DNA from: a virus
IMG/VR virus record: IMGVR_UViG_3300027759_000365
Location: 1-26,782 of that record
DNA: 26,782 nucleotides
Direction: 5' to 3' (one strand)
In this document: positions 11,701 through 23,631 of the stretch, in pieces
Position numbering within the stretch: the stretch's first letter is position 1
How the letters are laid out: every line of letters starts with the position of its first letter
Notes under the pieces: generated by a model
Database searches by the model: none
What the model was told of the DNA's origin: nothing
What the model saw: only the letters and a program-made list of their open reading frames with translations
Program-made: the position numbers and the translations under genes

Positions 11701-12192
11701 AGGCATTGTTGATAGGTGAGTAATTGCATACTCATATTCAACTGATGCTGGGTGTGAAGTCAGAGCAGAGGCAAGAAGAGTACGAGCTTTATCATCTTGA
11801 ATATCTGGGTCATCAATAATCCAACGAGCACGGTGTTGCATCAAGGATGCAAGAGTCATGTCGTTGTCGCGAGTTGAACGTGGGTGTGCAATTGGTAGAA
11901 GGTCTGTATTTTCTACACTTGCAGTAAGAGCCCTATTACTTTGAGCAAGGGTGATGTAGTGAGAAAGCTCTGTAAGAGCCTTGTGCTTACGAACAGAGAA
12001 TGCATCTGATTCGTTTTTAGCAAGAGAACGGGAGATAACTGTTAGAGCTGCCTTCTTTGTGACAGTACGAGTACCAGAGAACTCGGCGTTGGCTTTTTCA
12101 ACAAGCTCTAACGCTGCAGCATTAATCTTTTGTGTCTGTTCTTCAATAGAAGAAAGACGAAGAGCTGATTTCTTTGGGTAGTTGATATTCAC
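2752..12192 (-). CDS. Giant 3146-aa polyvalent-type protein: exonuclease, Nudix, kinase-like domains
   Basis: GTG start, overlapping the upstream TAG by 1 nt, with GAGAGGT upstream. Seen in order: DLLPIAHPRST at 97-107; RRDRKGRFAEMGGG near 194; two diverged copies of a P-EAI--AL---GED----IY--G module (about 500-562 and 672-739); an E/P/T-rich linker (745-800); three beta-modules with a -KPGD/KAGD start (about 806, 960 and 1408), the first two sharing GYYPGH; a DEDDh 3'-5' exonuclease (D1120, E1122; H1211/D1216 in AHNLPFD; H1273/D1278); a Nudix domain (FPGG 1615-1618, EEFSEEVG 1635-1642); a HipA/PI3K-like kinase fold (YYVKK with K1776, D1848 to N1863, D1875 in VDPGG); further small beta-modules; a K/E coiled stretch (about 2655-2695); and a C-terminal domain with GGLYSTTNRW (3014 on) and NGMSSKAD. 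Such concatenations next to portal genes match the 'polyvalent proteins' thought to be injected with phage DNA. It is not a tape measure: it has enzymatic domains and little coiled coil. Confidence 0.85.
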   Translation of the reverse strand: MNINYPKKSALRLSSIEEQTQKINAAALELVEKANAEFSGTRTVTKKAALTVISRSLAKNESDAFSVRKHKALTELSHYITLAQSNRALTASVENTDLLPIAHPRSTRDNDMTLASLMQHRARWIIDDPDIQDDKARTLLASALTSHPASVEYEYAITHLSTMPQGMVPQYALLAALGDGNSSAARRARAMLQRRDRKGRFAEMGGGLRALIKRAANGLVQSLTGTAVSQGIDGDTFDMELPDGKLVRVPASSAEAIKAILPSMQTKDGYSKTPAKVSIGDPVINEADLEVVDAPDGFKLDETWSPSADDVDYYGTKIDLGKKFTDDAYDVIKFDVANASAKDKFEAAQQKEAEGQNIVTVGKGKNNWVDETKPVYFVSRRDGKDKTFAAVQSWADVQDFITQDEPKYDKGEGVDPSKSETKKELLKKVKTGIEKVAEKKAAEEAKAEKPVAKLPEKQEDFDYPEGSYKLKQGVEYTPEGPIDGQVSPDYTDDPAELAQKFETDELVEALTQSVTGTKKSPATGFGGLPFEAGDEIVPAEAIYNALKEKGEDADSILGDIYSGGKQAEISEATPEVSDEIKDALGDEDVLDAPLPDGEEDPATLPPLLEGLSEDEKTNYAETGDYTKYLPKNSTDEAPSGYTELNEDPFNNSEAVLPEDAPEGFSFNPVDIANSYNKEDLKGELRRALEPGNEMPGYGLISQETPEGEDYVGYVPGEAIRDALQLQGEDTNALINEIYAEGADNEPTSQETQDALEGEAPETTQGTPTEQEAPAESTEQTPSNEAGPEATTVNTGEPTGPARLKAKVSELKAGDVTTNDFFTIENIYSDADSESAKPGSVWVEGYYPGHATQKTKLWYPDTEIEVYRNVDAPQKGDLPELSKPFAKDYDPQKKVYKDEALGIFVPKDAAAREQYLADVEEYNKNLEAAKAMWSAPEGLEEWQTPDAAPVYTPENPIGISEVASVDVKPGDITFKKEWGQDYYEFFVVEGVSTDEEGNAVVQGYYPGHESQTKTWKGTTKITVIKGATPPEAGTKPALERPKKDDPDFAEKKAAFDAAKKESAATWTAPIDLEASAPQPKAKKPTPPAFQGDKLKAIAEAAGGDAKKFKELLAQEEVVHIDFESTGGFNKPSPIQVALVKTKNGEVIDSKVLFMNPEKPLDSFYTDKDPAEVLKDSEGNPISDGFLEKQMSQEDAFKQIMEFFGENPIVSAHNLPFDGEILKRYTDQFGMDYKPSGEIDTLSLARKVINGGNGDHVLQAVAARYDLADPNTDWHDASVDVAVLPGILDNLLDEMAITNSGIDSLDVDKAKVDFDAANAQYTASKSKKAKADTELVMAKAFADGMAGKDVPTSEELGSALPKELPTSDELSPATTPKPSEVSDNDSQIESVLGGLVSNNWVSENENTTNVGKIAVEDMKPGDFISAQFGGYHEIISVEPDPDNDKKMVVTRRLLANGKEYKSSWIKYQAYEVRRRNEPIEIAQPVDSTPETPEVEQPILETDEAPEKESSAGTWNGYKISQGTDGVYYAENISSTDVQALRNGQLTPPQLPFFAPLGGGNDQETGEGYFFSVNGKRFWGKYGAAGALVRRKNSDGVYEYFLAKRSSGLSQEGGKWGFPGGAHKDQTIAKSVGGTAKEEFSEEVGGDLSSLEPKYIHQNFVGPEWAYDTYVFEVGPKQLSDLTPKDGENSEIGWFTADQINQMAADGKLHTNFADSAQAIFDLSEDNTKGPEKPTPAESKSTEVKAFDTSNWKKIAGQAGSNEGAFYVDPDTGEQYYVKKPKSDKHAANEALASALYAEAGTKIGRVYLGKDSKGNIVLVSPLVENSNKDFADKKNDANILKSAQEDFAVDAWLNNYDSVGLAYDNMLTVDGDVYRVDPGGSLLFRAQGKDKSKELTDDVKSIDTLRDGSINSESNDIFGSMTDEQIAESAKKVQAISPEKIDQLVDQAFPDDAETASFLKEKLKARREDLIKRFGLEPQEEEASEPIQSVSDSNPVIPLDPSGDLAQQLNDAVGKKVSFLYNGKDRVATVIPSKEGTAQIWENPKNGKTNIRLLDSDGAVKNFTISSIESNSEGFEAPKEASKPSTEAPSGWTKEGNYTWKKDGWVVTEDTEGNLTASNPKVSGLIFGNSWDEVQTKIDAEDVTPSIPQVATPEEIKAIAESPDGGITPSANDNIEPLNPVDTPLTETEKSTSLPEAEKQKVLDEVSNLAEKLFGSKGKTKDLLEALKGQEGVDNDLIDSIISDIDAPKTAPDATPEEKITSDLTQSLTPEDGDEDVPAEVLESVTTEELAAEAKTPMDPDLIWKKVQEEYSSTTLPNGHIVVFSQTNGTDKFDVVVKRNSDNTFSVYHRITGPDGTSKVKNLKGRWHSFTALKSRIESEKWKAKVTPSKVKAKAKTETPGSILPAAIPTQKGSYVSADGVSIVKVGQKVKDVKTGKTGVVISLKDELITGKSKLKPEGYTYTDVAKIKWDDTGKKNWKVSTYLEILDGPSGGGSGGTKTKPTPTPSSPSTPSTPEVDATPAEIPTYDAPSLQGAKALKDVEALAAKKNENEHMSYFGADSYSDYKEFLKGDFVKDPESKNLVPGIIVSNASPNSNDQDLTSHGVVTKTNSKTGEIEVTYFDGPLAGKGQTLKSDKVWSREKFLTVEQSKELGIDVDTTLLEKSRSASKAKGEKYAKELEEKKKKAQQEAEAKALKSKFEVNGPGFALQTPNAPADWSKSPVDNAPSLAEALKIAKGDNPLEAAKGATVLGDSDAIEDLELRVQKVTAKGGKESIRVTFTLTDWAANPRVAEMIDDASIDKSSGLDIDKWEKQPNGSLKYSKKWDSSSVDQSGTGVTYSGKAGKGTFKLHRAKKGAEKANFFNHASNSSNSVAFHNKVEIILPANATEKDIEDAIKAMGGVDNVRPATKDDIKGLVENKMIWLYGRSTDGTKNYAGELRDKILQQIKDDYGFTVDDVEISVDKEGRGRISYLVPQSVADKISSETGINYFNHTWQSSTPSGTDAMADFLFEIFQSGGLYSTTNRWMDGINTNGMSSKADVKANGGNYMFTHQSSSPNNGSSLSFSFDARKLLRRMDFYKNGGDKYGQLVSDAEDVIGKLKSGGGEIMWKKNLSWADLSSVSMSSAVRAALVKKLVAAGLPEYAKIVKG

Positions 12193-13529
12193 TACTGGGC
12201 TACCTCTCGTGTTGGAAGGAGGTCTGCATCAAGGCTGTCGTATGTCATGCTTGCAAGTAATGAAACTCTTTTAAATGGATTGTCATTGTTACGAATTGCA
12301 CGAAGCCAGCTAGCTCTAAAGGCTTGCTCTGCGTCGTAACCTAAGCCAGAAAATTCTGTCATAGAAAAAATAACTTCTTCAGGAGAATCGTATTCTGATT
12401 CTTCTTTAAGTTCTGTAAGAAGCTGCGCCTCTGCGTATGCAGTTGCTAGTAGAAGTTCCATATCCTCTTCATCGCGAACGGGGATTGCTGAACCATCAAC
12501 AACTCCTTCTGGAATTACTGCAAATCGGCACTTACCTTCTGCTTCAATCTCAAGTGAAATGATTTGACACTCTGTTCCTTGAAAGAAGACGCAGTTGGAA
12601 CACTTAACGCCAATATCCTTAACTTCGTTGTCGTATGCAGGTGTGTAACCAGCCCATACCCCATCGCCATCTTGGTCAAATTTTCCATACTTGGTAGTAA
12701 CCCAAACAAGTGCTTCTGCAAGAGCTTGCTCTTCTGGAATCAAACCAGATGCAGTCATTGCTGATGCTGACTTCTTTGTGCTTCGTGGGTGTGAAGCTGG
12801 AAGTAAATCGTTATCTTGCTTGTAGGCAGCAGATGAAGGCTTTCCAGACTTAAGAAGACGCAAGAATGCGTTAACGCGGCCCATTGCCCACTGATTGCGA
12901 GTCATACCGGGGCGGTGCGATACGGAGAAAGCTCCAGCACCACGACGGTAGACGGCCTTGAGCATTGACAAAGACGCTTTACGACCCTTTGGTGCAGTTT
13001 CATTATGTTCTGCAACCTTGTTCTTTAGTGTTGTTTCTGTTTTTGCATCAAAATTAATTTTCTTTGAACCAGATGCAGAACCCTTAGAGTTTTTATCTGA
13101 GCCTTTAATCTGGTCTTTCTTTGGAGCAGGAGTTTGAGCAACTGTTTTCTTACCAGCTGCTGTTACTGGACCACCAGCAACCCAAGCACGACAGGTACGA
13201 GCAGATGCACACTTGAAATCAAAGATTTCGCAGTAGCCAAGTTCTCCAGCTGCATCAATTGATTCAAACTCATCTGCGTTATCTGTTAGACCGCCTTCAA
13301 TGCAAGCTTTCATTTCTGGAGTTTGAATAAATACAGCGCAATTACCACAACGTTGTTGCTTTGCAGTCTCTGCATCTACATTCCACTCAGCTCCTAATGC
13401 AGTCCAATACTCTTCGTTTGGTTCTGCAGGATTAAGAGGTCCATACATTGCTGTATCAATTGCTTTTTTACGATTCTCAAGATTGATTGCAATATCTTGC
13501 GTTGCTGGAGGGCAAGTCTCTTCAGCCAT
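12192..13529 (-). CDS. Portal-adjacent cysteine-rich phage protein (GAGAFS-SHRPG family)
   Basis: 445 aa. Its start codon overlaps the portal stop (TAATG) and its stop overlaps the giant gene's GTG, so it is tightly coupled to both. Two cysteine clusters are visible: C61, C64, C76, C100, C107 and C113 (CGNCAVF ... GYCEIFDFKC), and C310, C313, C321 and C334 (KCSNCVFF ... GKCRFAVIPEG). These are likely metal or Fe-S binding sites (inference). Between them, residues 193-225 carry YRRGAGAFSVSHRPGMTRNQ and WAMGRVNAFLRLL, a block known to me from head-region proteins of actinophages. DLLPASHPRST (241-251) repeats almost exactly in the giant protein, and a third DLLP occurs 10 residues from the C-terminus. 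It could be a head-maturation or scaffold-like protein; no protease signature is evident. Confidence 0.8.
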   Translation of the reverse strand: MAEETCPPATQDIAINLENRKKAIDTAMYGPLNPAEPNEEYWTALGAEWNVDAETAKQQRCGNCAVFIQTPEMKACIEGGLTDNADEFESIDAAGELGYCEIFDFKCASARTCRAWVAGGPVTAAGKKTVAQTPAPKKDQIKGSDKNSKGSASGSKKINFDAKTETTLKNKVAEHNETAPKGRKASLSMLKAVYRRGAGAFSVSHRPGMTRNQWAMGRVNAFLRLLKSGKPSSAAYKQDNDLLPASHPRSTKKSASAMTASGLIPEEQALAEALVWVTTKYGKFDQDGDGVWAGYTPAYDNEVKDIGVKCSNCVFFQGTECQIISLEIEAEGKCRFAVIPEGVVDGSAIPVRDEEDMELLLATAYAEAQLLTELKEESEYDSPEEVIFSMTEFSGLGYDAEQAFRASWLRAIRNNDNPFKRVSLLASMTYDSLDADLLPTREVAQ

Positions 13530-15271
13530 TACTGTCCTACCTCTGGAGTAGTAGCTGGTGGCTCTGCAGGAGTTTCTGCAGGAGCTCCACCTTCAAGAAT
13601 TTGTTGTAACTCTGGAGTTAAAGGCGCAACAGATGACGCTTGTGCAGCAGCCTTAACTGCTTGCATCATTTCAGGAGCAACAGTATTAAGCATTGCTTCT
13701 GTAAGTTCAGGGGTCATTGCACCCTTCTCGGTCATCATACGAAGAGCCAACTCGTTTGGAGTAGGTGCATCTTGGTCTGAGAAGCCGTGAGCACGACGCC
13801 ATGTGTCGCCAGAAACAGCCATACGGTCATAACCAGCGTCTGCATCTGCAGCACGGTCATTGCGTGTTGAAACTGCTGATGGGTCATACCAAACAACAAT
13901 CTTGTTTACTTCAGCTTCTGGGTAACCATTAGCAATGAGGTATGGACGCAAATAAACAACTGTGAGTGCATCACAGATAAGAAGCATCATTGGCTCAATG
14001 TGTGCCTTGTAAAGTGCTTCATCAATTTGAAGTGCGTTTGAATATTTAACGTTTGCGAGTCCTGTTACGACATCCTTTGGAACATCTAGTCCTTGAAGGA
14101 TTCGTTCTAGAACACGGTCAGAACGCTCTGCAAGTGCAGGGTCGAATGAACGCTCAAACTTGAACTGCTTAATCTTATCGCCAAGTTCTGCAGGACCACG
14201 AATGATAAGAGGAACAACTGCGCTCGCTGATTCTTCATCGCGAATCGGAGTTGTCATCGCATCAATTAATTGTTCTTCGAATTCGTCTTCTGCTTCTTCG
14301 GCAGTAAAGCCTGCGCCGATACCATCCTCAGAATCGTATGGGTAGTCTGGGTCCGCCTGCGCCGCAACCGAGAGACCGTCTGGGAGATAAAGAGCGCCAG
14401 CATTGAGGCGAGAACGAGCAGTCGCACGGAATGTCCTATTCAGTAGTAAGAGTTCTGCACATAGATCAAGTAGTGAACGAAGTGATGAATCTGCTTCATC
14501 AGAGAAACGTGGGTGTGAACGCCAGATGCGTCCTACAAATGCTTTGCTACCAAGTCGAGAAACACCAAACGCTGCACCTTGTCCAGCTGCTTGTTCTCTG
14601 CGACCGATAACACTAAAGCCACCCTTAGGGTCTGTAATTACTTCGTCAACAGAACGAATGTCCCAAGACTCAGGAAGACCACTTCCTGGACGAGCAGGCA
14701 TCTGAACCAAATAGCATTCGCCTGAGACGGAAAGATTAAGAGCAGCATCTTTGAGTAAACCTGCTTGACCACCATATGCTGAGTTTAACCTTTCTAGTGC
14801 ACGCTCTGCTGCTGCTGAAAGATTTCCTTCAACAACACGAGATTCATTTACAGACACTGGAGCCTGTGACGGATCATCAACTGCTGCAGCATAAATTCTA
14901 ATTCGTGAAACAACTGATGCAACTAAGTTGAATGCATATTTGATTTCACCAATGGCATCGTAATATTCCCAAGCTTCTGCTTGCCATGCTGATGAAGATG
15001 CGTGACGACGAGTTTTAAATTGCTCGAATTCTGCTTTGTCATTTACCTTTACTTGAACAGCAGCAGCAGTAAGAGAACGAGGAATGTTGTATGCAGCAGA
15101 CATTGCTGGAGTTCCGCTGGTAAAAATATTAGCGAAAGAAGATGGAGCAGGTCTCTGCGGAATTTGTACTACTTGTGTTGAGCGCTTTGTGGATGCGCGA
15201 CGACGGGTTGGGCGCTTAGGAGCTGCAGCTGGTACTTCTTCAACTGGCTCTACTTTTTTGAATACGCTCAC
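13529..15271 (-). CDS. Phage portal protein
   Basis: 580 aa, GTG start with GAAGGG upstream. The portal forms the dodecameric ring at the head vertex through which DNA is packaged and ejected. Recognition rests on the actinophage portal pattern: EAWEYYDAIGEIKYAFN near residue 115, SGECYLV, WRSHPRFSDEADSSLR with LLDLCAELLLLNR following, then LERILQGLDVPKDVVTGLAN and KYSNALQIDEALYKAHIEP, and a late YLRPYLIANG. The N-terminal 50 residues are basic and Pro/Ala-rich, and the C-terminus is a Pro/Thr/Glu tail, as in relatives. The length is normal. It lies in a co-directional late operon directly upstream of the cysteine-rich protein and the giant protein. No terminase gene precedes it, which is unusual. 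Confidence 0.93.
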   Translation of the reverse strand: MSVFKKVEPVEEVPAAAPKRPTRRRASTKRSTQVVQIPQRPAPSSFANIFTSGTPAMSAAYNIPRSLTAAAVQVKVNDKAEFEQFKTRRHASSSAWQAEAWEYYDAIGEIKYAFNLVASVVSRIRIYAAAVDDPSQAPVSVNESRVVEGNLSAAAERALERLNSAYGGQAGLLKDAALNLSVSGECYLVQMPARPGSGLPESWDIRSVDEVITDPKGGFSVIGRREQAAGQGAAFGVSRLGSKAFVGRIWRSHPRFSDEADSSLRSLLDLCAELLLLNRTFRATARSRLNAGALYLPDGLSVAAQADPDYPYDSEDGIGAGFTAEEAEDEFEEQLIDAMTTPIRDEESASAVVPLIIRGPAELGDKIKQFKFERSFDPALAERSDRVLERILQGLDVPKDVVTGLANVKYSNALQIDEALYKAHIEPMMLLICDALTVVYLRPYLIANGYPEAEVNKIVVWYDPSAVSTRNDRAADADAGYDRMAVSGDTWRRAHGFSDQDAPTPNELALRMMTEKGAMTPELTEAMLNTVAPEMMQAVKAAAQASSVAPLTPELQQILEGGAPAETPAEPPATTPEVGQ

Positions 15272-15954: not shown

Positions 15955-16286
15955 TACTTCTCCGTATATTCAGAAGGGATGTAAAAGTCATTCCACCCCA
16001 AAGCTTCTTTTGCTACTCCTAACGGAATAAGTACTGGTCTAGAACGCTCACTCAAAGGTATGAAGGAAAAGACATCTTCCTTTGTTTTAGCCAACTGGGC
16101 ATTTTTCCAAGAGCGATTCTTTGTGAGACTGCGGATAGGGAAAGCCATAGGGAAGCGAGAGTTCTCAGAGGTCATGGTTTCAAGAGCTCTGGACTGTCGA
16201 GACTTTTTTGCTTTTGGATTAATCCAAACCACAACAGCTAATTCTTCTTCTGTGTAGATACCAGACTGTGTTTCGTACTGTCTCAC
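15954..16286 (-). CDS. Small basic protein of unknown function
   Basis: 110 aa with a GTG start overlapping the upstream stop (GTGA). It is basic and rich in K, R and S (NPKAKKSRQSRALE; IRSLTKNRSWKNAQLAKTK). The C-terminal part (SRPVLIPLGVAKEALGW) could form a short helix after a strand. No known motif. Its position between the HTH protein and portal suggests a head or packaging accessory role, inferred only from context. Confidence 0.65.
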   Translation of the reverse strand: MRQYETQSGIYTEEELAVVVWINPKAKKSRQSRALETMTSENSRFPMAFPIRSLTKNRSWKNAQLAKTKEDVFSFIPLSERSRPVLIPLGVAKEALGWNDFYIPSEYTEK

Positions 16287-16780
16287 TTACTCAACCTTCT
16301 CGCCATTGCTCGGTAGGAAACCCCTGCAGCCTCGGCAATAGCCGCAGTCGGTACACCCATGCTTCTCAGGGTCTTTGCTACAGCCGTCAGCTCATCGTTA
16401 GCTAAAGCCAGAGGACTGTCTGGGGCTGTCTTAGCTCTATACCTTTGGGCTAGAGCACTAAGTTCTTTTAGTCGAGGTTTCATATCGGGAGGGACGCCCG
16501 GAGAAATGGACCTCAGACGAGGTGCAGATTTAGTAGGAACTGAGGTAGTTAGCGATTTTGGAGGTGGAGCAGGGATATCCCTAAATTGCTCCACTATTTG
16601 CGCTCTTTTTACCCAGAAGTGGATTGTGGTCTTAGGTCTTTGTGGCTGTAAGGAGTTACCCAACGCCTGAAGGGACCAACCTGCTTCCCAGAGGACTCGG
16701 AGGCGCGATTCTGCCTCTGGACGCGGCAGAGAGCTGATGAATGTCACTTCATCTGAAGGCAATAGCGGCGTCTGATCCAT
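16283..16780 (-). CDS. HTH DNA-binding protein, candidate terminase small subunit
   Basis: 165 aa and first gene of the leftward late operon. Two helix-turn-helix-like segments are visible: residues about 30-60 (LWEAGWSLQALGNSLQ, then TTIHFWVKRA) and 142-165 (GVPTAAIAEAAGVSYRAMAR). They are joined by a Pro/Ser-rich linker and a helical RLKELSALAQRYR segment. This layout fits a family of HTH proteins found just ahead of head genes in actinophages; a terminase small subunit (pac or cos recognition) or a transcription regulator are both plausible. No Shine-Dalgarno precedes the ATG, and a TACTAT -10 lies 6 nt upstream, suggesting a leaderless message. No large terminase follows, so the packaging assignment is tentative. 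Confidence 0.75.
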   Translation of the reverse strand: MDQTPLLPSDEVTFISSLPRPEAESRLRVLWEAGWSLQALGNSLQPQRPKTTIHFWVKRAQIVEQFRDIPAPPPKSLTTSVPTKSAPRLRSISPGVPPDMKPRLKELSALAQRYRAKTAPDSPLALANDELTAVAKTLRSMGVPTAAIAEAAGVSYRAMARRLSK

Positions 16781-16784
16781 TTGT

Positions 16785-16843
16785 CTATAGTACAGGAGTT
16801 TTGAAGTGTCGTACGGGAGAAAGAGGGGCTATCTCTTTGTACG
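16785..16843 (-). promoter_or_regulatory. Candidate leaderless promoter and inverted repeat of the late operon
   Basis: On the minus strand TACTAT (16792-16787) ends 6 nt before the ATG at 16780, which places the expected transcription start at or within 1-2 nt of the A of the start codon. No good TTGACA-like -35 is seen. Upstream, AAAGAG (16820-16825) and CTCTTT (16833-16838) form an inverted repeat, flanked by CGTAC (16810-16814) and GTACG (16839-16843). It sits where a repressor or activator would act on this promoter. Leaderless messages are common in actinobacteria. Confidence 0.45.
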
Positions 16844-16860
16844 AGAAGGTCGAAAAGATG

Positions 16861-17000
16861 AACATTTACATTAATTGACTTTGGGCTGCGAGTGGGCCCC
16901 GCTTATATTTGGGACTCCGCCAAATCGTTTCCTAAACTTTTTTGCTTCTCTCTTGGCTTTTGCTTTCTTTTGAGTTTTTGCTTGCTGGGTTGCTTTTGTA
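16861..17000. other. Non-coding T-rich tract upstream of the iterons
   Basis: Part of the 644-bp gene-free gap 16,781-17,424. From about 16,938 to 16,998 the plus strand is strongly T-rich, with a recurring TTTTGCTT-type unit (at least three imperfect copies). A GGGCCC palindrome lies near 16,897. Short open frames across it translate to low-complexity F/C/L peptides and are not believable genes. Confidence 0.5.
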
Positions 17001-17095
17001 TTCATCAAGGTCATCAAAGGTCATCAAGGTCATCACTATGTGTGGTCAAGTCATCATTATGTGTGGTCATTGTTGGTCAAGGTGTTTGTTTTATT

Positions 17096-17168
17096 GTCAA
17101 GGTCATCAAGTTGTTAGGAAGTGGTCAAGCCTGGTCACCAGGTCAAGGTCATCAAGTTGTTAGGAAGT
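17096..17168 (+). repeat. Exact 27-bp direct repeat, two copies
   Basis: Copies at 17096-17122 and 17142-17168 are identical over 27 bp (core CATCAAGTTGTTAGGAAGT), with a 46-bp start-to-start distance. The intervening 19 bp contain most of the CCTGGTCACCAGG palindrome. The identity is too long for chance. Confidence 0.9.
17130..17142. promoter_or_regulatory. Palindrome CCTGGTCACCAGG
   Basis: A perfect 6-bp-arm palindrome with one central base, lying between the two 27-bp direct repeats. The same sequence with a different central base (CCTGGTTACCAGG) occurs at 24230-24242 upstream of the Ntn-hydrolase gene. Two such sites in one window suggest an operator for a dimeric regulator. Confidence 0.55.
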
Positions 17169-17201
17169 TATCTATCTAGTCACTAAATCTTTCTAGGTGC
17201 T

Positions 17202-17290
17202 GGGCTAGGTCTTGGGTTAGGTCTTGGGCTTGGGTCTTGGGTCTTGGTCTCTTATGTTGGGCTGGTTGGGCTGGTTGGGTTGGGCTTGGG
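17202..17290 (+). repeat. GGG/CTT repeat tract with G-quadruplex motif
   Basis: The plus strand carries ten GGG runs in about 90 bp, in GGTCTTGGG and GGGCTGGTT repeats, almost without A. From 17259 to 17290 five GGG runs are spaced 6, 6, 2 and 3 nt apart, which meets the classical G-quadruplex pattern; the earlier runs have loops of up to 9 nt. Strand asymmetry of G over C is extreme. It sits between the iterons and an AT-rich stretch (17317-17337). Confidence 0.7.
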
Positions 17291-17293
17291 CTA

Positions 17294-17317
17294 TGCCTAG
17301 AGGCTTGCCTAGAGGCT
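17294..17317 (+). repeat. Tandem 12-bp repeat TGCCTAGAGGCT x2
   Basis: Two perfect contiguous copies, 17294-17305 and 17306-17317, followed by an AT-rich tract to 17337 and then the P1 promoter. Possible regulator site or origin element. Confidence 0.8.
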
Positions 17318-17349
17318 AAAAATAAATCTAAAAAATCTTGCAGAAAGGC

Positions 17350-17403
17350 TTGACAAAGTGCAGGAAGGTTGCTAGATTATCTTTTGTAAGCAATAAGGCT
17401 TAC
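17350..17403 (+). promoter_or_regulatory. Promoter P1 with TGCAGGAAGG spacer and initial hairpin
   Basis: TTGACA (17350-17355), a 17-bp spacer containing AAGTGCAGGAAGGTT, and TAGATT (17373-17378). The predicted start near 17385 is followed at once by GTAAGC-AATAAG-GCTTAC (17386-17403), so the transcript would begin with a hairpin. The same promoter design recurs at 18213 and 18735 and, in variant form, at three minus-strand sites. It drives the first rightward gene. Confidence 0.85.
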
Positions 17404-17424
17404 TTACACAGGGAGAAACAAACG

Positions 17425-17667
17425 ATGTATAAGACTTATGGAGTAGAAATCACAGCAGGCGGAGTTACTTATTATTTCCACCTAGACAACCTGAACAAGG
17501 TTCGTGAGTTGTTCGCAGGTTCTTGCGACATCACCCGCTTCATCGTGACTGAGGAGATTGACGGAAACGGACCTAAGCAGTTCCGCAAGATGGAGATGGC
17601 AGAAGTGCAGGACATCATCTGGGGTCGCACCGCACGAGTCCAAATCTTGCAGGCAGTAAGCGCCTAA
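17425..17667 (+). CDS. Small rightward-operon protein of unknown function
   Basis: 80 aa. The ATG at 17425 is chosen because it lies downstream of promoter P1 with GGGAG 11 nt upstream; an in-frame TTG at 17338 lies before the promoter and cannot be used by this transcript. The sequence shows a beta-hairpin-like start (YGVEITAGGVTYYFHLDN) followed by a helix (NKVRELFAG) and a basic helical end. No cysteine pairs, signal or membrane segment. It is the first gene of the only rightward block and has its own terminator directly after it, so it is an independent unit, probably abundant and early. The family is not recognised. Confidence 0.75.
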   Translation: MYKTYGVEITAGGVTYYFHLDNLNKVRELFAGSCDITRFIVTEEIDGNGPKQFRKMEMAEVQDIIWGRTARVQILQAVSA

Positions 17668-17681
17668 CCCAATAGGACTAG

Positions 17682-17717
17682 AGCCCCTTAGGTCACCCCC
17701 TGACCTGAGGGGCTTTC
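17682..17717 (+). terminator. Strong intrinsic terminator
   Basis: A 14-bp stem (17682-17695 with 17701-17714; one G-T pair) with a five-C loop, followed by TTT. It ends the P1 transcript 15 nt after the stop codon. Confidence 0.85.
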
Positions 17718-17762
17718 CTATGCCACCGCAATAAACACAAACACAAACGACGAGGAGACATT

Positions 17763-17969
17763 ATGAAGAAGATACTCACCGCAGTAAGCAACCGAGTAAA
17801 TGAAATGCTAAACAACCTAGACGAGAAGATTATAAACAGCGAGTGGGCTCAAAGTATCAGAGACGAATACCGCATTGAGAGGACACCTGAGGAGCAGGCA
17901 GAGATGAAGAAACTAGGCAAGTATGGGACACCTGAGAGTCGTGGCAAATACAACAGAGAGGGGTTCTAA
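17763..17969 (+). CDS. Small charged protein of unknown function
   Basis: 68 aa, ATG with GAGGAG 7 nt upstream. Mostly helical and charged (NRVNEMLNNLDEKIINSEWA; RTPEEQAEMKKLGKYG). It is immediately followed by the next gene (TAA then ATG with no gap), so the two are co-translated. No promoter of the P1 type directly precedes it, so it may depend on read-through or an unseen promoter. Function unknown. Confidence 0.7.
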   Translation: MKKILTAVSNRVNEMLNNLDEKIINSEWAQSIRDEYRIERTPEEQAEMKKLGKYGTPESRGKYNREGF

Positions 17970-18209
17970 ATGTATCAAGTGACTAACCCTAAGTCGGGTA
18001 AAAAATACACCTACAGCACCGCAAGACAGGCAGACGCACAAGCTTTAGCCACGAAACTAGGGGTAGAGGTTGTAGAGGTAATAGCAGTAGGCAGTCTGCC
18101 TAACCGCAGACCAAAGGTCTACACCGCAAAGGTCTGCCTATGTGGAAGGCGAGAGGACACCCACGAGTCCTACGATTGCTACAAAGACGACAAACTAACT
18201 AACGGCTAA
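17970..18209 (+). CDS. Small protein with C-terminal Cys/His residues
   Basis: 79 aa. The ATG abuts the previous stop, with GAGAGGGG inside the upstream gene as ribosome site. The N-terminus (MYQVTNPKSGKKYTYSTARQ) suggests a small beta-alpha fold; the C-terminus has CLCGRREDTHESYDC, a possible metal-binding loop. The gene carries one GGGTAAAAA motif (17996-18004) in the sense direction. Promoter P2 starts 4 nt after its stop. Function unknown. Confidence 0.7.
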   Translation: MYQVTNPKSGKKYTYSTARQADAQALATKLGVEVVEVIAVGSLPNRRPKVYTAKVCLCGRREDTHESYDCYKDDKLTNG

Positions 18210-18212
18210 GAC

Positions 18213-18252
18213 TTGACAAAGTGCAGAGAGGTTTATAGACTTACACCGTAAG
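18213..18252 (+). promoter_or_regulatory. Promoter P2 with CTTAC/GTAAG inverted repeat at -10
   Basis: TTGACA (18213-18218), a 17-bp spacer with AAGTGCAGAGAGGTT, then TAGACT (18236-18241). CTTAC (18240-18244) and GTAAG (18248-18252) form an inverted repeat that overlaps the -10 and start. It drives the DUF3846 gene. Confidence 0.85.
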
Positions 18253-18280
18253 CAAGTAACAACAAGACAAAGGACACCCA

Positions 18281-18655
18281 ATGACAACAAAGACAGCCTT
18301 ACAGGTAACAACAACAGGAGAGGTCACAGAGTTAGACCTAGCCTCGGACAGCCTCAACAAACTACAGACCGCAGTAGGTGGGTGGGTGCAGGCGATAGAC
18401 CTAGCCTCAGACCTCTCAATGTGGTGCAACGAAGAAGGCAAACTGACAGGGCTACCGCATAACCCATACGCACAATATATGTGGGACAAAGTATTCGGGG
18501 CACACACGGACTACCTAGTCGGGGACATAGTTCTCACAGGTGGGACAGACTCAGAAGGTGAGACTATTGGACTCACACAGGAGCAGGTAGACATTATGAA
18601 ACTGACCGTAGCAAAGGTGCAGAAGTTCGTAGAACCTAGCATTACACTTATCTAG
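18281..18655 (+). CDS. DUF3846-type phage protein
   Basis: 124 aa. Resemblance to DUF3846 proteins: LNKLQTAVGGWVQAIDL, then MWCNEEGKLTGLPHNPYAQ, then YLVGDIVLTGG followed by GETIGLTQEQ. These features (a 'Q-AVGG-', 'NEEGKL-GLP-NP' and 'GD-VLTGG' series) are the family core, found in phages and mobile elements and of unknown biochemical role. Its promoter P2 lies 40 nt upstream, AAAGGA precedes the ATG, and a strong terminator follows, so it forms a one-gene unit. Confidence 0.85.
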   Translation: MTTKTALQVTTTGEVTELDLASDSLNKLQTAVGGWVQAIDLASDLSMWCNEEGKLTGLPHNPYAQYMWDKVFGAHTDYLVGDIVLTGGTDSEGETIGLTQEQVDIMKLTVAKVQKFVEPSITLI

Positions 18656-18669
18656 TCACGGGACAGAAG

Positions 18670-18699
18670 AGCCCCCTTGCTTAGGCAGGGGGGTTTTTC
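18670..18699 (+). terminator. Intrinsic terminator
   Basis: CCCCCTTGC pairs with GCAGGGGG around a 4-nt loop (TTAG), followed by TTTTT. It lies 14 nt after the DUF3846 stop. Confidence 0.88.
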
Positions 18700-18734
18700 T
18701 TTATCAAACTGTTATACGACACGCCGTAAAGGAC

Positions 18735-18789
18735 TTGACAAAGTGCAGGAAGGTTGGCATAGTTCACTTATTGCTACAGGGAGTAGCAA
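18735..18789 (+). promoter_or_regulatory. Promoter P3 with TGCAGGAAGG spacer and initial hairpin
   Basis: TTGACA (18735-18740), a 17-bp spacer beginning AAGTGCAGGAAGGTT (identical to P1), then CATAGT (18758-18763). TTGCTAC (18771-18777) and GTAGCAA (18783-18789) form a hairpin starting at about +1, as in P1. It drives the two genes at 18812-19218. Confidence 0.8.
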
Positions 18790-18811
18790 ACAGAACAAAG
18801 GAAACGACGAA

Positions 18812-18967
18812 ATGATAAGTGACTTTTTCGGAAACAGACTAGATGACATCTCATATTTTTTTGGAAGTATCGTAGATTGGCTAGAAGAGAACCTAACTAC
18901 TGACGGCCCTTGGCCCGCATTGCTTGCAGTTGTTATCTGCACCGTGGTTGGGATACTGACACTATGA
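18812..18967 (+). CDS. Small single-pass membrane protein
   Basis: 51 aa. The ATG at 18812 lies after promoter P3 with AAAGGA upstream; a longer frame would start inside the preceding terminator. The C-terminal half is one hydrophobic helix (WPALLAVVICTVVGILTL) preceded by an acidic amphipathic part (DDISYFFGSIVDWLEENL). It could act at the host membrane, for example in superinfection exclusion, but this is a guess. It overlaps the next gene by ATGA. Confidence 0.7.
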   Translation: MISDFFGNRLDDISYFFGSIVDWLEENLTTDGPWPALLAVVICTVVGILTL

Positions 18968-19218
18968 CAACAACAAAGACAGAACCACTAGAGGCAGAAG
19001 TAGCAGAGGCTATGAAGAGGCACGACCCTAAACAAGGGCACACCTACAATGCAGAGACGCAAGAGTATTTCACGACCTGTGTGAAGTGTGGGCAAGACAT
19101 CTACGGCGCATACGCAGAGGACGAAGAGCGTGGGCGTGTCTTTATAGGTTGGTTCTCAGATGCGAAGAACGCAAAAGGAAAGCACATTGCAGTTATTCAT
19201 TGTCCAATAATTTGGTGA
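18964..19218 (+). CDS. Small putative zinc-binding protein
   Basis: 84 aa, start overlapping the upstream stop (ATGA) and therefore coupled to it. CVKCGQDIYG in the middle and HC near the C-terminus give a possible C2HC-type metal site. The N-terminus is charged (LEAEVAEAMKRHDPKQGHTY). It is the last rightward gene; the convergent terminator begins 16 nt later. Function unknown. Confidence 0.7.
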   Translation: MTTTKTEPLEAEVAEAMKRHDPKQGHTYNAETQEYFTTCVKCGQDIYGAYAEDEERGRVFIGWFSDAKNAKGKHIAVIHCPIIW

Positions 19219-19233
19219 AGATTTAGAAAGAGG

Positions 19234-19265
19234 AGACCCAAGGGGTAAAAATTCCCCCTGGGTCT
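19234..19265. terminator. Bidirectional terminator holding a GGGGTAAAAAT motif
   Basis: AGACCCA-A-GGGG (19234-19245) pairs with CCCC-C-TGGGTCT (19254-19265); one internal A-C mismatch. The loop is TAAAAATT. It lies between convergent transcription units (the rightward gene ends at 19218, holin stop at 19284). The 5' arm and loop contain GGGGTAAAAAT, one of the 14 copies of the repeated motif. Confidence 0.8.
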
Positions 19266-19283
19266 TCCTGTTCACAGGTCTAA

Positions 19284-19559
19284 CTACTTAGATGCTGCAC
19301 CCTTACTAGGTGCCCTTTTCTTATCTACAGCCGCAAAGACATCATCTATCTCTGCCGCAGTGAGTTTCCCATCTTGTAGATAAGCGCGACTCAACCCCTC
19401 AACTACGGTCGCCACGCCACCTATGCCAGCCATCAAGATTGCTTGTGTGAGTTCTACGCCAGCAATAGCGCCAGCCCCAATCACAGATAACCCAGATGCT
19501 GCGAACACCGCCATAATTCTTGATAGAACCATTTTGGTCTTTTCTGTATTTGCTGCCAT
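19284..19559 (-). CDS. Holin
   Basis: 91 aa. The ATG at 19559 is chosen for its GGAAGGA site; a longer frame runs into the hairpin region upstream. Two hydrophobic segments (MAVFAASGLSVIGAGAIAGV and QAILMAGIGGVATVVEGLSRA) are followed by a charged tail (LQDGKLTAAEIDDVFAAVDKK). This plan, with the 'DGKLT-EI--VF' tail, is typical of actinophage holins that form the inner-membrane lesion timing lysis. Its position after the two wall-active genes supports the call. Confidence 0.75.
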   Translation of the reverse strand: MAANTEKTKMVLSRIMAVFAASGLSVIGAGAIAGVELTQAILMAGIGGVATVVEGLSRAYLQDGKLTAAEIDDVFAAVDKKRAPSKGAASK

Positions 19560-19593
19560 TTTGTGCCGTCCTTCCATAGTCCGCACTAATGAC

Positions 19594-19652
19594 GTTGCTA
19601 CGGGACGCAACAACGCCCAGCCCCTCAATAATAGATGAGAGACTGGGCGTTG
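19594..19652 (-). promoter_or_regulatory. Hairpin between lysin-accessory and holin genes
   Basis: CAACGCCCAG (19611-19620) and CTGGGCGTTG (19643-19652) are a perfect 10-bp inverted repeat with a 22-nt loop. A second small stem, GTTGC...GCAAC, adjoins at about 19594-19611. There is no T tract after it in the leftward direction, so it is more likely an RNA processing, stability or attenuation element than a full terminator. It could tune holin expression. Confidence 0.65.
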
Positions 19653-19663
19653 ATATGAAAGAA

Positions 19664-20095
19664 CTAAGGCAGGATTTCTACTGCCGTGCCACTAAATAAA
19701 GCCTCAATCGTTGCTAAGTCAGAACAATCTTTTGATTCTATGCGCTTATCTTTTTGGAACTCTTGTAGAGCAGAGCAAGTGTTCTCACCGAAGTAGCCAC
19801 TCTTCTCATCTCCTGCAGAGGAGTAGCCAAGTTCAATCAAACGCTTCTGAACTGAGATGACAGAGCGTGAATTGCGAGCGCTTCCGCAGCAAACAAGCGC
19901 AGCCATCTGGACATAAACACCAGAACCTTTGGCAGCTACGTTCGACTGATCGGAATTTTTACCCCTTTTAGCTTCAGGAGCTGCTGCAGCTACAGCTACA
20001 GCTTCTTGCTTCACAACAACTTCTGGTTCTGGGACAACAACAACCGCATCTACTTTTGGAACAATAGGTTCGGCTGGCTTGAATTCTTCTGACAT
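19664..20095 (-). CDS. Peptidoglycan-binding (PG_binding_1-like) protein
   Basis: 143 aa; the ATG at 20095 has AAGGAAGG upstream. Residues 1-55 are a Pro/Val/Ala/Glu-rich linker of low complexity. Residues about 80-135 match the peptidoglycan-binding domain 1 fold (SVQKRLIELGYSSAGDEKSG, YFGENTCSALQEFQKDKRI). C69, C70, C107 and C124 could make disulfides. No catalytic domain is present, so it may work with the lysozyme encoded just upstream, or be the wall-binding part of a split endolysin. It overlaps no neighbour. Confidence 0.8.
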   Translation of the reverse strand: MSEEFKPAEPIVPKVDAVVVVPEPEVVVKQEAVAVAAAAPEAKRGKNSDQSNVAAKGSGVYVQMAALVCCGSARNSRSVISVQKRLIELGYSSAGDEKSGYFGENTCSALQEFQKDKRIESKDCSDLATIEALFSGTAVEILP

Positions 20096-20108
20096 ATAGG
20101 TTTCCTTC

Positions 20109-20777
20109 CTACTTTGATGGGAATTTAGCAACCCACGAATAGAGGTCACCAACTTTCCCTCCATTATAAGCGTTATTGCCTACCCCCCAAGCGCCGAAAT
20201 CTTCTCCTCCACCTGACATTAGGAAAGCAATCCGCGCATTGGCTACTGGGTTGAATAGTTCTTCGTTGGTTGTGAGACCGTATCTCTCACGGCGGTCTGT
20301 TCCAAGACTGCCAATCATATTGATTTGGAACAATCCATAGGAGTTATCTCCTGTATTGGAGTTCTCATTGTGCGATGTAGGTCCTCCACGGGACTCTCGC
20401 ATCGCAATACCCCAAGCAAGTTTCAAGGCTTCTCCCTTGAATCCAACTGCTTTGAGAAGTTCTTTGAGTTCCTCAGGCTCTAATGGCGCTCGACGTTCCG
20501 CATACTTCGCAAGAACTGATGGGGCTGGAGGATTTGTAGTGACTGAAGCTGTCGTAAGTGAGTAGATTTTTACCCCTTTATCGACGCGATCAGGGATCAC
20601 TACGTTCTTCTTTACTGTCGTTGATGTCGTTGTTGATGTATCTGCTACTGCTACTACATTGGATTGGCTATCGTTGTTTCCAACTGCTTGGGCTACCGCA
20701 GCGCTGGCACTCAATAGCACGAAAGCCATTGACAAACCGAACACTACTGTTTCTGCTTCGCGTTTAGAAATACGCAT
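20109..20777 (-). CDS. Secreted lysozyme / lytic transglycosylase (endolysin)
   Basis: 222 aa, AAAGGAG before the ATG. Residues about 10-32 form a signal peptide or anchor (VVFGLSMAFVLLSASAAVAQ). A Ser/Thr/Val-rich linker to about 85 leads to a lysozyme-like SLT domain (110-222): AWGIAMRESRGG with catalytic E128, then NSYGLFQINM, then NPVANARIAFLMS, and WGVGNNAYNGG. The order fits transglycosylase-type muramidases cleaving the glycan backbone. With the PG-binding protein and holin directly downstream it makes the lysis cassette; export by a signal peptide suggests holin-triggered or SAR-type release. A virion-associated wall hydrolase is the alternative. Confidence 0.82.
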   Translation of the reverse strand: MRISKREAETVVFGLSMAFVLLSASAAVAQAVGNNDSQSNVVAVADTSTTTSTTVKKNVVIPDRVDKGVKIYSLTTASVTTNPPAPSVLAKYAERRAPLEPEELKELLKAVGFKGEALKLAWGIAMRESRGGPTSHNENSNTGDNSYGLFQINMIGSLGTDRRERYGLTTNEELFNPVANARIAFLMSGGGEDFGAWGVGNNAYNGGKVGDLYSWVAKFPSK

Positions 20778-20950
20778 TGTTGCTCCTTTGTTAGGGGATA
20801 GGGACAGGTGCTAGTGAAACTGCACCGAAGGGCGTTATATAGCCCTCATCATTTTGTCTAATACGTCTTTACCTCCTAAACCCTAGCACGTTTGCAGGGT
20901 AATCCACCCCCTAAGAATACCCCAAAAGGTGGATTTCCCCCAACAAAAGG
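20778..20950 (-). promoter_or_regulatory. Intergenic region with two inverted repeats upstream of the lysis cassette
   Basis: AATCCACC (20901-20908) and GGTGGATT (20928-20935) form an 8-bp inverted repeat that may end the DUF6011-like gene transcript. AGGGC-GTTATATA-GCCCT (20829-20846) is a second hairpin. On the minus strand CCCTGCAAACGT near 20898-20887 resembles the spacer of promoter P4 (CCCTGCAAATGT), but no convincing -35/-10 pair accompanies it. A dedicated lysis promoter is likely here but cannot be placed. Confidence 0.45.
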
Positions 20951-21571
20951 TTACGGGAGTATGAACGCCTTCCTGCACTCTGGTCCAAGCATCAACTCAC
21001 GGCTCTTAGGGTCTGTGAGTTCAGCACCGCATTTGCCACAGCATTGGTAATGTTCAGCAAACAACTTGGTGTATTTGTATGGGTCAGTCTTGATTATCCG
21101 TGTAAACACAAGGGCGTCCTCAACGGCTGGTCGGACACGAGTGAACGCTCCAACTGAACCATATAACTTCTTGATGTAGGTCTTCTTCATATATTCCTTG
21201 ACCTCAACGAAGACTAAATCTCCGTGCACTTTGTCCTTCAGAAGGTCAGTCATCAACTCAGAAACTGGTATCGCATACTTGCTTTTAGGCACTCCCTGAA
21301 GTGCCCCAATAAGTTCTCCATAGAGGTTAGGTTCTGCCTTTTTTATCAATTCAGCGAAGGCTGGAGATGGCAAGGTTGGCTGGACAACCATCTTTGGGTA
21401 TCCCAAGAAAAGTCCAATCAGGCTTGATGCCTTCTTGATGTCAAGAGTTTTTTTCTCCGCAAGATATGCAGAGACCATCTCTCTCGGGACTTCCCGATTA
21501 TTTACCAAGTCATCAAGAAACTTGATTTGCTTCTCTGATGCTGGTGCGTATGTTGATGTCATTTGTGTCAT
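20951..21571 (-). CDS. DUF6011-like zinc-ribbon phage protein
   Basis: 206 aa, first gene after promoter P4, with AGGGAGG before the ATG. Residues 10-60 (PASEKQIKFLDDLVNNREVP ... KKASSLIGLFLG) match the 'ASEKQ--F---L' helical module seen in many phage proteins. The C-terminus (CCGKCGAELTDPKSRELMLG, PEC) is a zinc ribbon of the DUF6011 type. The central domain is not recognised. Such proteins are common in actinophage early regions and may bind nucleic acid (inference). Confidence 0.8.
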   Translation of the reverse strand: MTQMTSTYAPASEKQIKFLDDLVNNREVPREMVSAYLAEKKTLDIKKASSLIGLFLGYPKMVVQPTLPSPAFAELIKKAEPNLYGELIGALQGVPKSKYAIPVSELMTDLLKDKVHGDLVFVEVKEYMKKTYIKKLYGSVGAFTRVRPAVEDALVFTRIIKTDPYKYTKLFAEHYQCCGKCGAELTDPKSRELMLGPECRKAFILP

Positions 21572-21600
21572 TTGATTTGCCTCCCTGTTGGCTTTAGACC

Positions 21601-21629
21601 AATCTACCTGACATTTGCAGGGAAGTCAA
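21601..21629 (-). promoter_or_regulatory. Promoter P4
   Basis: Minus strand: TTGACT (21629-21624), a 17-bp spacer TCCCTGCAAATGTCAGG, then TAGATT (21606-21601). The spacer contains CCTG...CAGG as an imperfect dyad, and the CCCTGCA core is the complement of the TGCAGG core in P1-P3. It drives the gene at 21571. Confidence 0.8.
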
Positions 21630-21633
21630 GTTA

Positions 21634-22047
21634 TTAGCCTGACTTTTTTGGAGAGAGACTTGGATACTCATCTTCGTAGTATGAGTCGTCCGCAAACCCC
21701 GTATAGGAGTAGGTCGGCTTCACATAGTTCTCTGAGACCTGATGCATAACTGACCACACCTCAGAGAGGCTGTGAGTGAAGTCTGCACCACGAGTCTGAT
21801 ACATACGAGACTTGTAGTTGTTGTATTGCATCTCCTCGATGGTCTTCAACACCCACTCCGCATACTTCTTCTTCGAGACAAACACACGATGTGGGTAGTC
21901 CCGCTGCGGGGTATCTAGAATTTTTACCCCAGCGAACTTCGCCAGAGCTTCCAAACTCTTCTTGTCACGACCACGAACAATCATTTTCTTTTTGTCCTGC
22001 AGGTCTACGACCGCAGATACAAAACCTGTTTCACTAAATAGCCACAT
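21634..22047 (-). CDS. Conserved actinophage protein of unknown function
   Basis: 137 aa. MWLFSETGFVSAVVD, then a charged MIVRGRDKKSLEAL strand-helix, YPHRVFVSKKKYAEWV and finally HSLSEVWSVMHQV follow the pattern of a small protein common in actinobacteriophages ('MWLF...GF-S-V ... YP-RV ... F...VWSVM'). Its function is not known to me. The start has GAAAGGACG upstream, a variant of the recurring leader. It contains a GGGGTAAAAAT motif (21920-21930) inside the coding sequence, read as GVKI. Confidence 0.8.
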   Translation of the reverse strand: MWLFSETGFVSAVVDLQDKKKMIVRGRDKKSLEALAKFAGVKILDTPQRDYPHRVFVSKKKYAEWVLKTIEEMQYNNYKSRMYQTRGADFTHSLSEVWSVMHQVSENYVKPTYSYTGFADDSYYEDEYPSLSPKKSG

Positions 22048-22078
22048 TTGGCGTCCTTTCGTCTTTCATTAGTAGTTG

Positions 22079-22228
22079 TTATTTCTCTCTTGCACTTAGA
22101 AGTGCAGAAGTTATTGCAATAAAGCCAAACGACATTACGAGGTTTGGGTAGTAAGTGACCGCAGCGATTACTGATGCGACGCAAGCGAGCGCAGAGATTA
22201 CTGAAGTCCAAACAATGTTCTTAGGCAT
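22079..22228 (-). CDS. Small two-pass membrane protein
   Basis: 49 aa. The ATG at 22228 overlaps the end of the HTH gene (ATGCCTAA) and is preceded by AAAAGGA. Two hydrophobic segments are present (WTSVISALACVASVIAAVTY and NLVMSFGFIAITSALLS). A longer frame to 22342 would overlap the HTH gene almost fully and is not chosen. Function unknown; holin-like size but far from the lysis genes. Confidence 0.65.
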   Translation of the reverse strand: MPKNIVWTSVISALACVASVIAAVTYYPNLVMSFGFIAITSALLSAREK

Positions 22229-22421
22229 CTGTATTCCTTTTCTTGTCAGGTCGGGTTCTTCCAACCAAACGAGTTGATGGGTCTCTAACGACTGTGCCCT
22301 GCGAATAAATCGCCTTGCGTGCAGTTCGGTATGCGACTCCAAGTTCCTTTGCTACTGCTTCTATTGCGAAACCTTTGTCATAAAGTTCCGAAGCCTGTTG
22401 TGCGATGTTTGCACTCTTCAT
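22221..22421 (-). CDS. Small HTH protein
   Basis: 66 aa. An HTH of the resolvase or sigma-region-4 type is visible: ASELYDKGFAIEAVAKELGV followed by AYRTARKAIYSQG, then a basic tail (VGRTRPDKKRN). It lies in a run of overlapping small genes; its start codon is within a GGTAAAAATG copy of the repeated motif, which also holds the previous gene's TAA stop. It could regulate the phage promoters. Confidence 0.75.
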   Translation of the reverse strand: MKSANIAQQASELYDKGFAIEAVAKELGVAYRTARKAIYSQGTVVRDPSTRLVGRTRPDKKRNTDA

Positions 22422-22423
22422 TT

Positions 22424-22930
22424 TTACCTTTCGTATCCTTCTTCTATGGGTCTTTGGACTGCTCCCCCGATTGTGTCAGGGTCGCCACCTAAAGACGCTA
22501 TCCAATTACGGGTCTCTTCGTCGTCGGGGTCGCTAGTCACTCTACGACCAGCGTTCCAAGTGAACGGAGAGGTTGCTCCCACAGGTAAGACAAACAGGTG
22601 ATACTGATTAGCCGTATCAACAAGTTGGCTTTCGGGTGGGAAGATTTCTATGGCTTCTCTTTCCGCACCAACAAGTTCGTTCTTGATGCGTTGGAAGTGT
22701 CGCCAGTCTCTTATTGCTTTTCTGTTTTGATGTCTGATGCTCAGGTGGATTGCACCTTCTTCAGTTGCCTCAAACAGAAACTTATGAACTACATAGAACG
22801 AGTTAGCCCAAAGGGTTTCGTGTTCCCGTAGTGAGTCTTTTGCTTCCTTCCCGTGTGCGTATGGGACTGCTTCTTGAAACGGCGTCCATACTTTTTGGGG
22901 GAGCGTTCGTCCACCTTTATGCTTTGACAT
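22424..22930 (-). CDS. DUF7694-like conserved phage protein
   Basis: 168 aa. IRDWRHFQRIKNELVGAERE, AIEIFPPESQLVDTANQYHL and FVLPVGATSPFTWN make a very conserved phage block in which a W-x-x-FQ-IKNELVG motif and 'E--LVDTANQYHL' recur; I associate it with DUF7694, whose function is unknown. The C-terminal NWIASLGGDPDTIGGAVQRP is family-typical as well. The ATG overlaps a GGGTAAAAATG motif and follows the CGACGAAAGGACA leader. Confidence 0.85.
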   Translation of the reverse strand: MSKHKGGRTLPQKVWTPFQEAVPYAHGKEAKDSLREHETLWANSFYVVHKFLFEATEEGAIHLSIRHQNRKAIRDWRHFQRIKNELVGAEREAIEIFPPESQLVDTANQYHLFVLPVGATSPFTWNAGRRVTSDPDDEETRNWIASLGGDPDTIGGAVQRPIEEGYER

Positions 22931-22952
22931 TTTTACCCTGTCCTTTCGTCGC

Positions 22953-23141
22953 TTATGGGTAGAGCAAGTTCTTGCAGAAAGAACTCATCTCTTCTACTGG
23001 AACTCGGCACGCTTCAGGTGTCGTGATGTGGTCTGCGAACGCAAACACCGCAAGGAATAGCAGGAACAAGATTGTCCCAACTACATAGCGCCCTCGCTTA
23101 GTGAGGCTTACGCCTAACCATCTCTCAACTGCATTTATCAT
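22953..23141 (-). CDS. Small single-pass membrane protein
   Basis: 62 aa, ATG at 23141 preceded by the CGACGAAAGGACA leader, under promoter P5. A charged N-terminus (MINAVERWLGVSLTKRGR) precedes one strong membrane helix (YVVGTILFLLFLAVFAFADH), and the outer part has two cysteines. Function unknown. Confidence 0.7.
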   Translation of the reverse strand: MINAVERWLGVSLTKRGRYVVGTILFLLFLAVFAFADHITTPEACRVPVEEMSSFCKNLLYP

Positions 23142-23164
23142 TTCGTGTCCTTTCGTCGTTTTGG

Positions 23165-23205
23165 CTTACAGATGTAAGTCTATCAGACCTTCCTGCATTT
23201 TGCAA
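23165..23205 (-). promoter_or_regulatory. Promoter P5 with CTTACA/TGTAAG inverted repeat
   Basis: Minus strand: TTGCAA (23205-23200), a 17-bp spacer AATGCAGGAAGGTCTGA, then TAGACT (23182-23177). CTTACA (23178-23173) and TGTAAG (23170-23165) make an inverted repeat over the -10 and start, as in P2. The spacer core TGCAGGAAGGT is identical to P1 and P3 although the promoter faces the other way. Confidence 0.85.
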
Positions 23206-23210
23206 GTAGG

Positions 23211-23513: not shown

Positions 23514-23518
23514 CTTGC

Positions 23519-23568: not shown

Positions 23569-23631
23569 GTCTTTGCAAGAAAATCTTTGGAAAGTTATTT
23601 GGAAGTGCTATCCAGCCTGGAGGAAATCTAC

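Follow-up and report, generated by a model that had tools for sequence, protein, structure and literature searches.

The window analysed here is a 26.8-kb virus record (IMGVR_UViG_3300027759_000365; 26,782 nucleotides), in which a tailed-phage portal gene (PHROG 776) lies on the minus strand at positions 13529-15271. As had been noted earlier, the window contains a gene-free gap between divergent genes; it extends over 16781-17424, with a leftward gene (16283-16780) starting at its left edge and a rightward gene (17425-17667) on its right. The leftward gene encodes a 165-aa protein with a homologue in Microbacterium phage Cece, gp60, which is annotated as a helix-turn-helix protein (39% identity), and searches with the 165-aa protein gave no match in Pfam or PHROG and no convincing match in PDB. 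We considered this protein as a small terminase and dropped the assignment, because in Cece it is gp1 that is annotated as small terminase, and the homologue of gp1 lies 20-26 kb off in the relatives. Neither a TerL nor a TerS homologue was found within the 26.8-kb window. The head-gene region, at 2752-12192, holds a 3146-aa minus-strand reading frame, in parts of which a likeness to an exonuclease and to a NUDIX hydrolase can be seen by eye. The features discussed below are listed in Table 1.

Table 1. Features in and around the gap of the window, and the second noncoding gap of five relatives (positions in the respective records).
Feature	Position	Strand	Basis
165-aa protein with two helix-turn-helix-like segments, opening the leftward packaging/portal operon	16283-16780	-	conserved beside the portal operon in aligned relatives
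TACTAT, the putative -10 box of a leaderless promoter whose ATG (16780) follows after 6 nt	16787-16792	-	pattern in relatives
~111-bp conserved block, proposed to be recognised and cleaved by the terminase at the end of the direct terminal repeat (DTR)	16837-16947	.	alignment, pattern, model matches
Predicted cleavage point/DTR end, between two bases	16898/16899	.	homologous base to four deposited DTR ends
Predicted DTR part within the window, may extend past the window	16899-26782	.	homology with Microbacterium phages, inference
ATTTGG-N7-CCAAAT dyad on the inner side of the predicted cut, close to it	16907-16925	.	window and some relatives
GGTCATCAA-type repeats including both 27-bp copies	17002-17168	+	confined to relatives at or above ~97% portal identity
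Tandem tract rich in G/T, containing a single G4-type match (17259-17290)	17193-17290	+	sequence
Perfect 12-bp tandem repeat, TGCCTAGAGGCT x2	17294-17317	+	sequence
AT-rich stretch, UP-element-like, directly upstream of the early promoter	17318-17349	+	similar A/T run in L002, L004, L005, L015
Candidate early promoter P1, TTGACA-17-TAGATT, spacer AAGTGCAGGAAGGTTGC	17350-17378	+	many relatives have the motif at equivalent positions
Candidate early promoter P2, P1 motif with 2 mismatches	18213-18241	+	motif
Candidate early promoter P3, P1 motif	18735-18763	+	motif
Second gap, L112 (G002)	47570-48127		relatives
Second gap, L105 (G013)	92070-92714		relatives
Second gap, L094 (G003)	44049-44478		relatives
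Second gap, L087 (G012)	57521-57858		relatives
Second gap, L113 (DSL-LC01)	17498-18279		relatives

On account of its repeats, the gap had been taken for a replication origin or a master regulatory switch. We estimated chance levels for the repeats from 500 dinucleotide shuffles of the region 16861-17337. The GGTCA iterons are real: 11 copies, all on the plus strand, were counted in this region, against a mean of 1.4 and a maximum of 5 in the shuffles, none of which reached 11. None of the 500 shuffles matched the five copies of GGTCATCA in the same region or the exact 27-bp direct repeat (17096-17122 and 17142-17168) either. The palindrome CCTGGTCACCAGG (at 17130), the perfect 12-bp tandem repeat and the AT-rich box were also found as described. 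The GGG runs and the G-quadruplex (G4) pattern exist as well (14 runs and one G4-type match), but they are not unusual, as base composition explains both: the shuffles carry 12.4 GGG on average, 137 of the 500 reach 14, and a G4-type match arises in 33. The G/T strand bias, described as extreme and not explained by coding, does give the highest G+T content of any 250-bp stretch in the window (0.70 at 17039-17288), although the second-highest stretch (0.672 near 9758) falls within a coding region.

We then gathered 80 related loci via the portal and compared their gaps side by side. The helix-turn-helix gene is kept upstream of the portal in nearly all of them, and in most cases an intergenic gap and rightward genes come next, in this order; in exceptions such as L059 and L073/L074, apparently coding sequence takes the place of the gap. 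The repeats in the gap change fast and are gone by ~84% portal identity. Arrays of GGTCATCAA appeared only in relatives with ~97% portal identity or more, the other phages having different repeats or none. The tract of the near relatives carries substitutions, and in one of them (L004) it also differs by more than 130 bp in length.

The sole conserved part of the gap is a block of ~111 bp, which the original prediction overlooked and which overlaps the left edge of the region that it had delimited. The block has the architecture TTGTACG-N15-TGAACNTT...TTTTGGCCTGTGAG..GG...AAATCGTTCCGGGCTTTTTT, includes GTAC/TGAAC boxes, and can be aligned almost without gaps across 35 distinct sequences from diverged freshwater phages. 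A fixed-spacing pattern for the block was found in 92 of 2.9 million IMG/VR contigs, in 59 variants. When 26 representatives were anchored at the predicted cut (see below), ungapped pairwise identity was 0.73 at -30 to -11 and 0.58-0.66 in the adjoining 20-bp bins; beyond the block, it was ~0.25-0.36 past +50 and 0.30-0.34 before -90. A blastn search of the gap DNA against cultured phages gave short, low-scoring matches only.

Judged by the portal, the nearest annotated phages are DSL-LC01, assembled from a lake metagenome, and Microbacterium phages of 186-195 kb. A model of the block, built from freshwater phage sequences only, was searched over whole genomes and matched Pumpernickel at 19917-20022 (E = 1.4e-6), DSL-LC01 (2.1e-5), A3Wally (6.2e-4) and Cece (0.003); the whole genomes of Zooman and Big4 gave no match at E <= 10, and Arthrobacter phage Mimi, which has a direct terminal repeat (DTR) of ~20 kb, gave no match. 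A second match was found at the extreme right end of the Pumpernickel record, where the copy is truncated: it starts at model position 67 and 5 further bases are left in the record, which places the end at position 62/63. In Pumpernickel and A3Wally, the genes at the left and right ends repeat each other, indicating that these genomes carry DTRs, and the DTRs of the deposited Microbacterium phage genomes are 15.5-20.0 kb long. We mapped the final 60 bases of each record, with the ends as deposited in GenBank, to the internal copy and so located the DTR ends at 19963 in Pumpernickel, 15503 in A3Wally, 17079 in Zooman, 18079 in Cece and 17669 in Big4. Those of Pumpernickel, A3Wally, Zooman and Cece fall on one aligned base inside the block (in A3Wally between GCTGAGAGGAAA and ATCCTTATATTGG, in block orientation), and the deposited end of Big4 lies ~9 bp off this common site. 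Going by the deposited sequences, a physical genome end is thus located at the block in four cultured relatives; in Pumpernickel, A3Wally and Cece the block was recognised with the model, in Zooman from its position. As the four genomes are mutually related, they do not amount to four independent proofs.

Two further observations concern the relatives. The DTR end of Mimi is at 19868 (L118 19565-19959, record coordinates), with GTTTC 28 nt from the end, a distance equal to that in the freshwater block; this end is possibly a distant version of the block. In DSL-LC01, the coding sequence annotated over the helix-turn-helix gene (L113 46806-47402; OQ999401) begins before the block and runs across it. 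Its start codon is probably wrong, as homology starts near 47062-47080.

The coincidence of four DTR ends at one aligned base, together with the terminal copy in Pumpernickel truncated there, led us to read the block as a terminase cleavage site and DTR boundary. We therefore consider it likely, with good though not full confidence, that the gap of the window contains the boundary of a long DTR in a large freshwater actinobacteriophage, with the block serving as the terminase cut element and the cut predicted as given in Table 1. We infer from homology that the phage of the window has the same ends and that its terminase binds and cuts the block; the 165-aa helix-turn-helix-like protein is a possible binder of the block. 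In the proposed scheme, the terminase would cut the replicated concatemer at the block. The DNA to the left of the cut, with the helix-turn-helix gene, the portal and the head genes, would then be unique, and that to the right would be the terminal repeat, of which each packaged molecule would carry a copy at either end. The G/T stretch with its many repeats would form the noncoding tip of the terminal repeat, whose first genes would make up a short rightward operon transcribed from host-type promoters that have a spacer motif in common.

The terminases in long freshwater contigs are homologous to those of the Microbacterium phages (57-60% identity for TerL and 33-39% for TerS). On the repeat side, some 20-26 kb separate the terS homologue from the block, a distance comparable in magnitude to the 15-20 kb repeats of the Microbacterium phages. 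Several points count against the DTR reading. In the Microbacterium phages, the left end of the DTR lies 62 bp before terS, in a noncoding leader, whereas terS of the freshwater phages lies within an operon and has no such leader; the left DTR end of the freshwater phages was sought around terS and in the gap upstream of it in the relatives, and was not located there. Furthermore, the IMG/VR records checked are classed as 'linear' and carry no end repeats, and DSL-LC01 was deposited as a circular genome. The ends of the IMG/VR contigs seen do not cluster at the predicted cut, which is uninformative, since no clustering is expected where the internal copy continues through the cut site. One genome of 160704 bases (G003; L019/L020) holds two portal regions, which are related but not the same, and two copies of the block at a distance of 136.6 kb. 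We rejected this pair of blocks as proof of a DTR, because the overlapping ends are only 72-85% identical; the record is probably a chimera of two strains or similar.

If the block marks the DTR boundary, the repeat-rich, G/T-biased stretch beside it is most likely the fast-changing noncoding tip of the DTR, and not a demonstrated replication origin. A G/T-rich tract of unrelated sequence also follows the block in DSL-LC01 (0.78 over 250 bp), and the Microbacterium phages have repeat-rich DTR tips without G/T bias, so the position is common and the sequence is not. One may speculate that the tract itself is functional, stalling or priming DNA synthesis beside the cut (e.g. by R-loops or G-quadruplexes) so that the DTR is duplicated during packaging, in a telomere-like manner, but we regard this as improbable.

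The idea of a regulatory switch proved partly right, in that divergent candidate promoters, a leaderless one leftward and a strong, conserved one rightward, flank the gap. On the left side, the pattern of TACNAT, 6-7 nt and ATG was observed by eye in relatives. On the right side, the motif TTGACAAAGTGCAGGAAGGT of P1 is repeated at 18213 and 18735 and is found again in many relatives at equivalent places; most of the records with the motif have it within a few kb of the gap and nowhere else. These three predicted copies are of the sigma70 type, with -35 and -10 hexamers at a 17-nt spacing, recurring upstream of genes. Between the two hexamers, GCAGGAAGGT is fixed (17358-17369, 18221-18232 and 18743-18754), which suggests that the spacer may be an operator of a phage regulator. 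Alternatively, the whole region might serve purely transcriptional control: the divergent promoters would be accompanied by arrays of operators, and the block would be where the promoter of the late (portal) operon is regulated. The leaderless -10 pattern beside the helix-turn-helix gene, the early promoter with its family-wide spacer motif and the GTAC/TGAAC boxes in the block would all fit. Nevertheless, the block is found just upstream of the helix-turn-helix gene in DSL-LC01 but, in Pumpernickel, A3Wally and Cece, in a gap of 630-710 bp between convergent genes, 6-10 kb from that gene, and thus is not its promoter. Since the block also coincides with genome ends, the promoters, which are real candidates in themselves, leave the block unexplained, and we give this alternative little chance.

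We regard as very unlikely that the gap is an iteron origin, in which an initiator would bind the GGTCATCAA repeats and melt the AT-rich box. The clustered same-direction repeats, far above chance, and the AT-rich box next to them do resemble such origins. Unlike in iteron origins, however, the repeat architecture was not found in relatives beyond near-identical ones, and no initiator was recognised near the gap among the window proteins scanned, many of which have no assigned function. In addition, GC and keto skew in five longer relatives showed no origin-like extreme: the GC skew shifts with gene strand alone, and no genome-wide extreme falls at the gap in their contigs. The AT-rich box, moreover, occupies the UP-element position of the early promoter. 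Finally, another gap looks more origin-like. Five relatives have a second large noncoding gap ~2.4-2.9 kb upstream of the terS homologue (Table 1), which is AT-rich and contains hairpins (ACTATCA..TGATAGT), GTATAGT repeats and an ACGCGT core. GCAGGAAGGT motifs are present in this gap in four of the five, all except DSL-LC01, and in both orientations in some. From its sequence, the second gap appears to be the better origin candidate; it is a candidate for either the origin or the other end of the terminal repeat.

A cos site, with a staggered cut and cohesive, non-redundant ends, would account for a nearly rigid conserved element adjoining packaging genes, as is typical of cos regions, but the cultured relatives bearing the block have DTRs of 15-20 kb and not unique cohesive ends, which makes the chance of this alternative very slim indeed. 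That the block encodes a structured RNA, riboswitch or terminator is next to negligible: a small dyad and a T-run at the end of the block might hint at it, but an Rfam search with the block gave no match of substance, RNAalifold on the block alignment gave no consensus structure on either strand, and the fixed-register covariation of the dyad (180 versus a shuffle mean of 172) was not above that of the shuffles.

The DTR boundary proposed here is a single-base prediction, made from sequence only, of the chromosome ends of a large group of uncultured freshwater actinobacteriophages (92 contigs sharing one fixed-spacing pattern). With the predicted cut anchored on cultured relatives, the genomes could be opened at their true ends, and the genes in the terminal repeat could be identified. 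As the compact terminus element is conserved across host genera and present in cultivable Microbacterium phages, it may also permit studies on how very long DTRs are made. A narrow search of the PMC literature found no description of this terminus element.

Among known systems, the proposed terminus is most directly comparable to those of the Microbacterium phages Pumpernickel, A3Wally, Zooman and Cece (186-195 kb, long DTRs), in which a homologous block lies at the DTR end, followed by a noncoding, repeat-rich DTR tip of 570-650 bp. Portal, TerL, TerS and the helix-turn-helix protein are homologous as well, the terminases being those of the contigs of freshwater relatives. The two systems differ in that (i) the block lies between convergent genes in the Microbacterium phages and upstream of the helix-turn-helix gene in the window, (ii) the Microbacterium phages lack the G/T strand bias, and the genes in their repeat point towards the end, not away from it, and (iii) the left DTR end shortly before terS in the Microbacterium phages has no counterpart at that position in the freshwater relatives. 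Actinomycetia phage DSL-LC01 (Dishui Lake metagenome) resembles the window in that the block lies upstream of the helix-turn-helix gene and has a G/T-rich tract after it, and its terS homologue lies ~26 kb from the block. It differs in being deposited as a circular 129-kb genome and in the unrelated sequence of its tract, and its terL is near the block, unlike in G012 and G003. In T5 and SPO1, early genes lie within the terminal repeat. DTRs of ~10 kb or more are known from T5-, SPO1- and Streptomyces cluster BE1-type phages (PMC5557969, PMC5764925), that of cluster BE1 being ~11 kb (PMC5764925), and DTRs exceeding 10 kb form an established kind (PMC5557969); the likeness proposed for our phage to T5, SPO1 and cluster BE1 is in the long-DTR kind.
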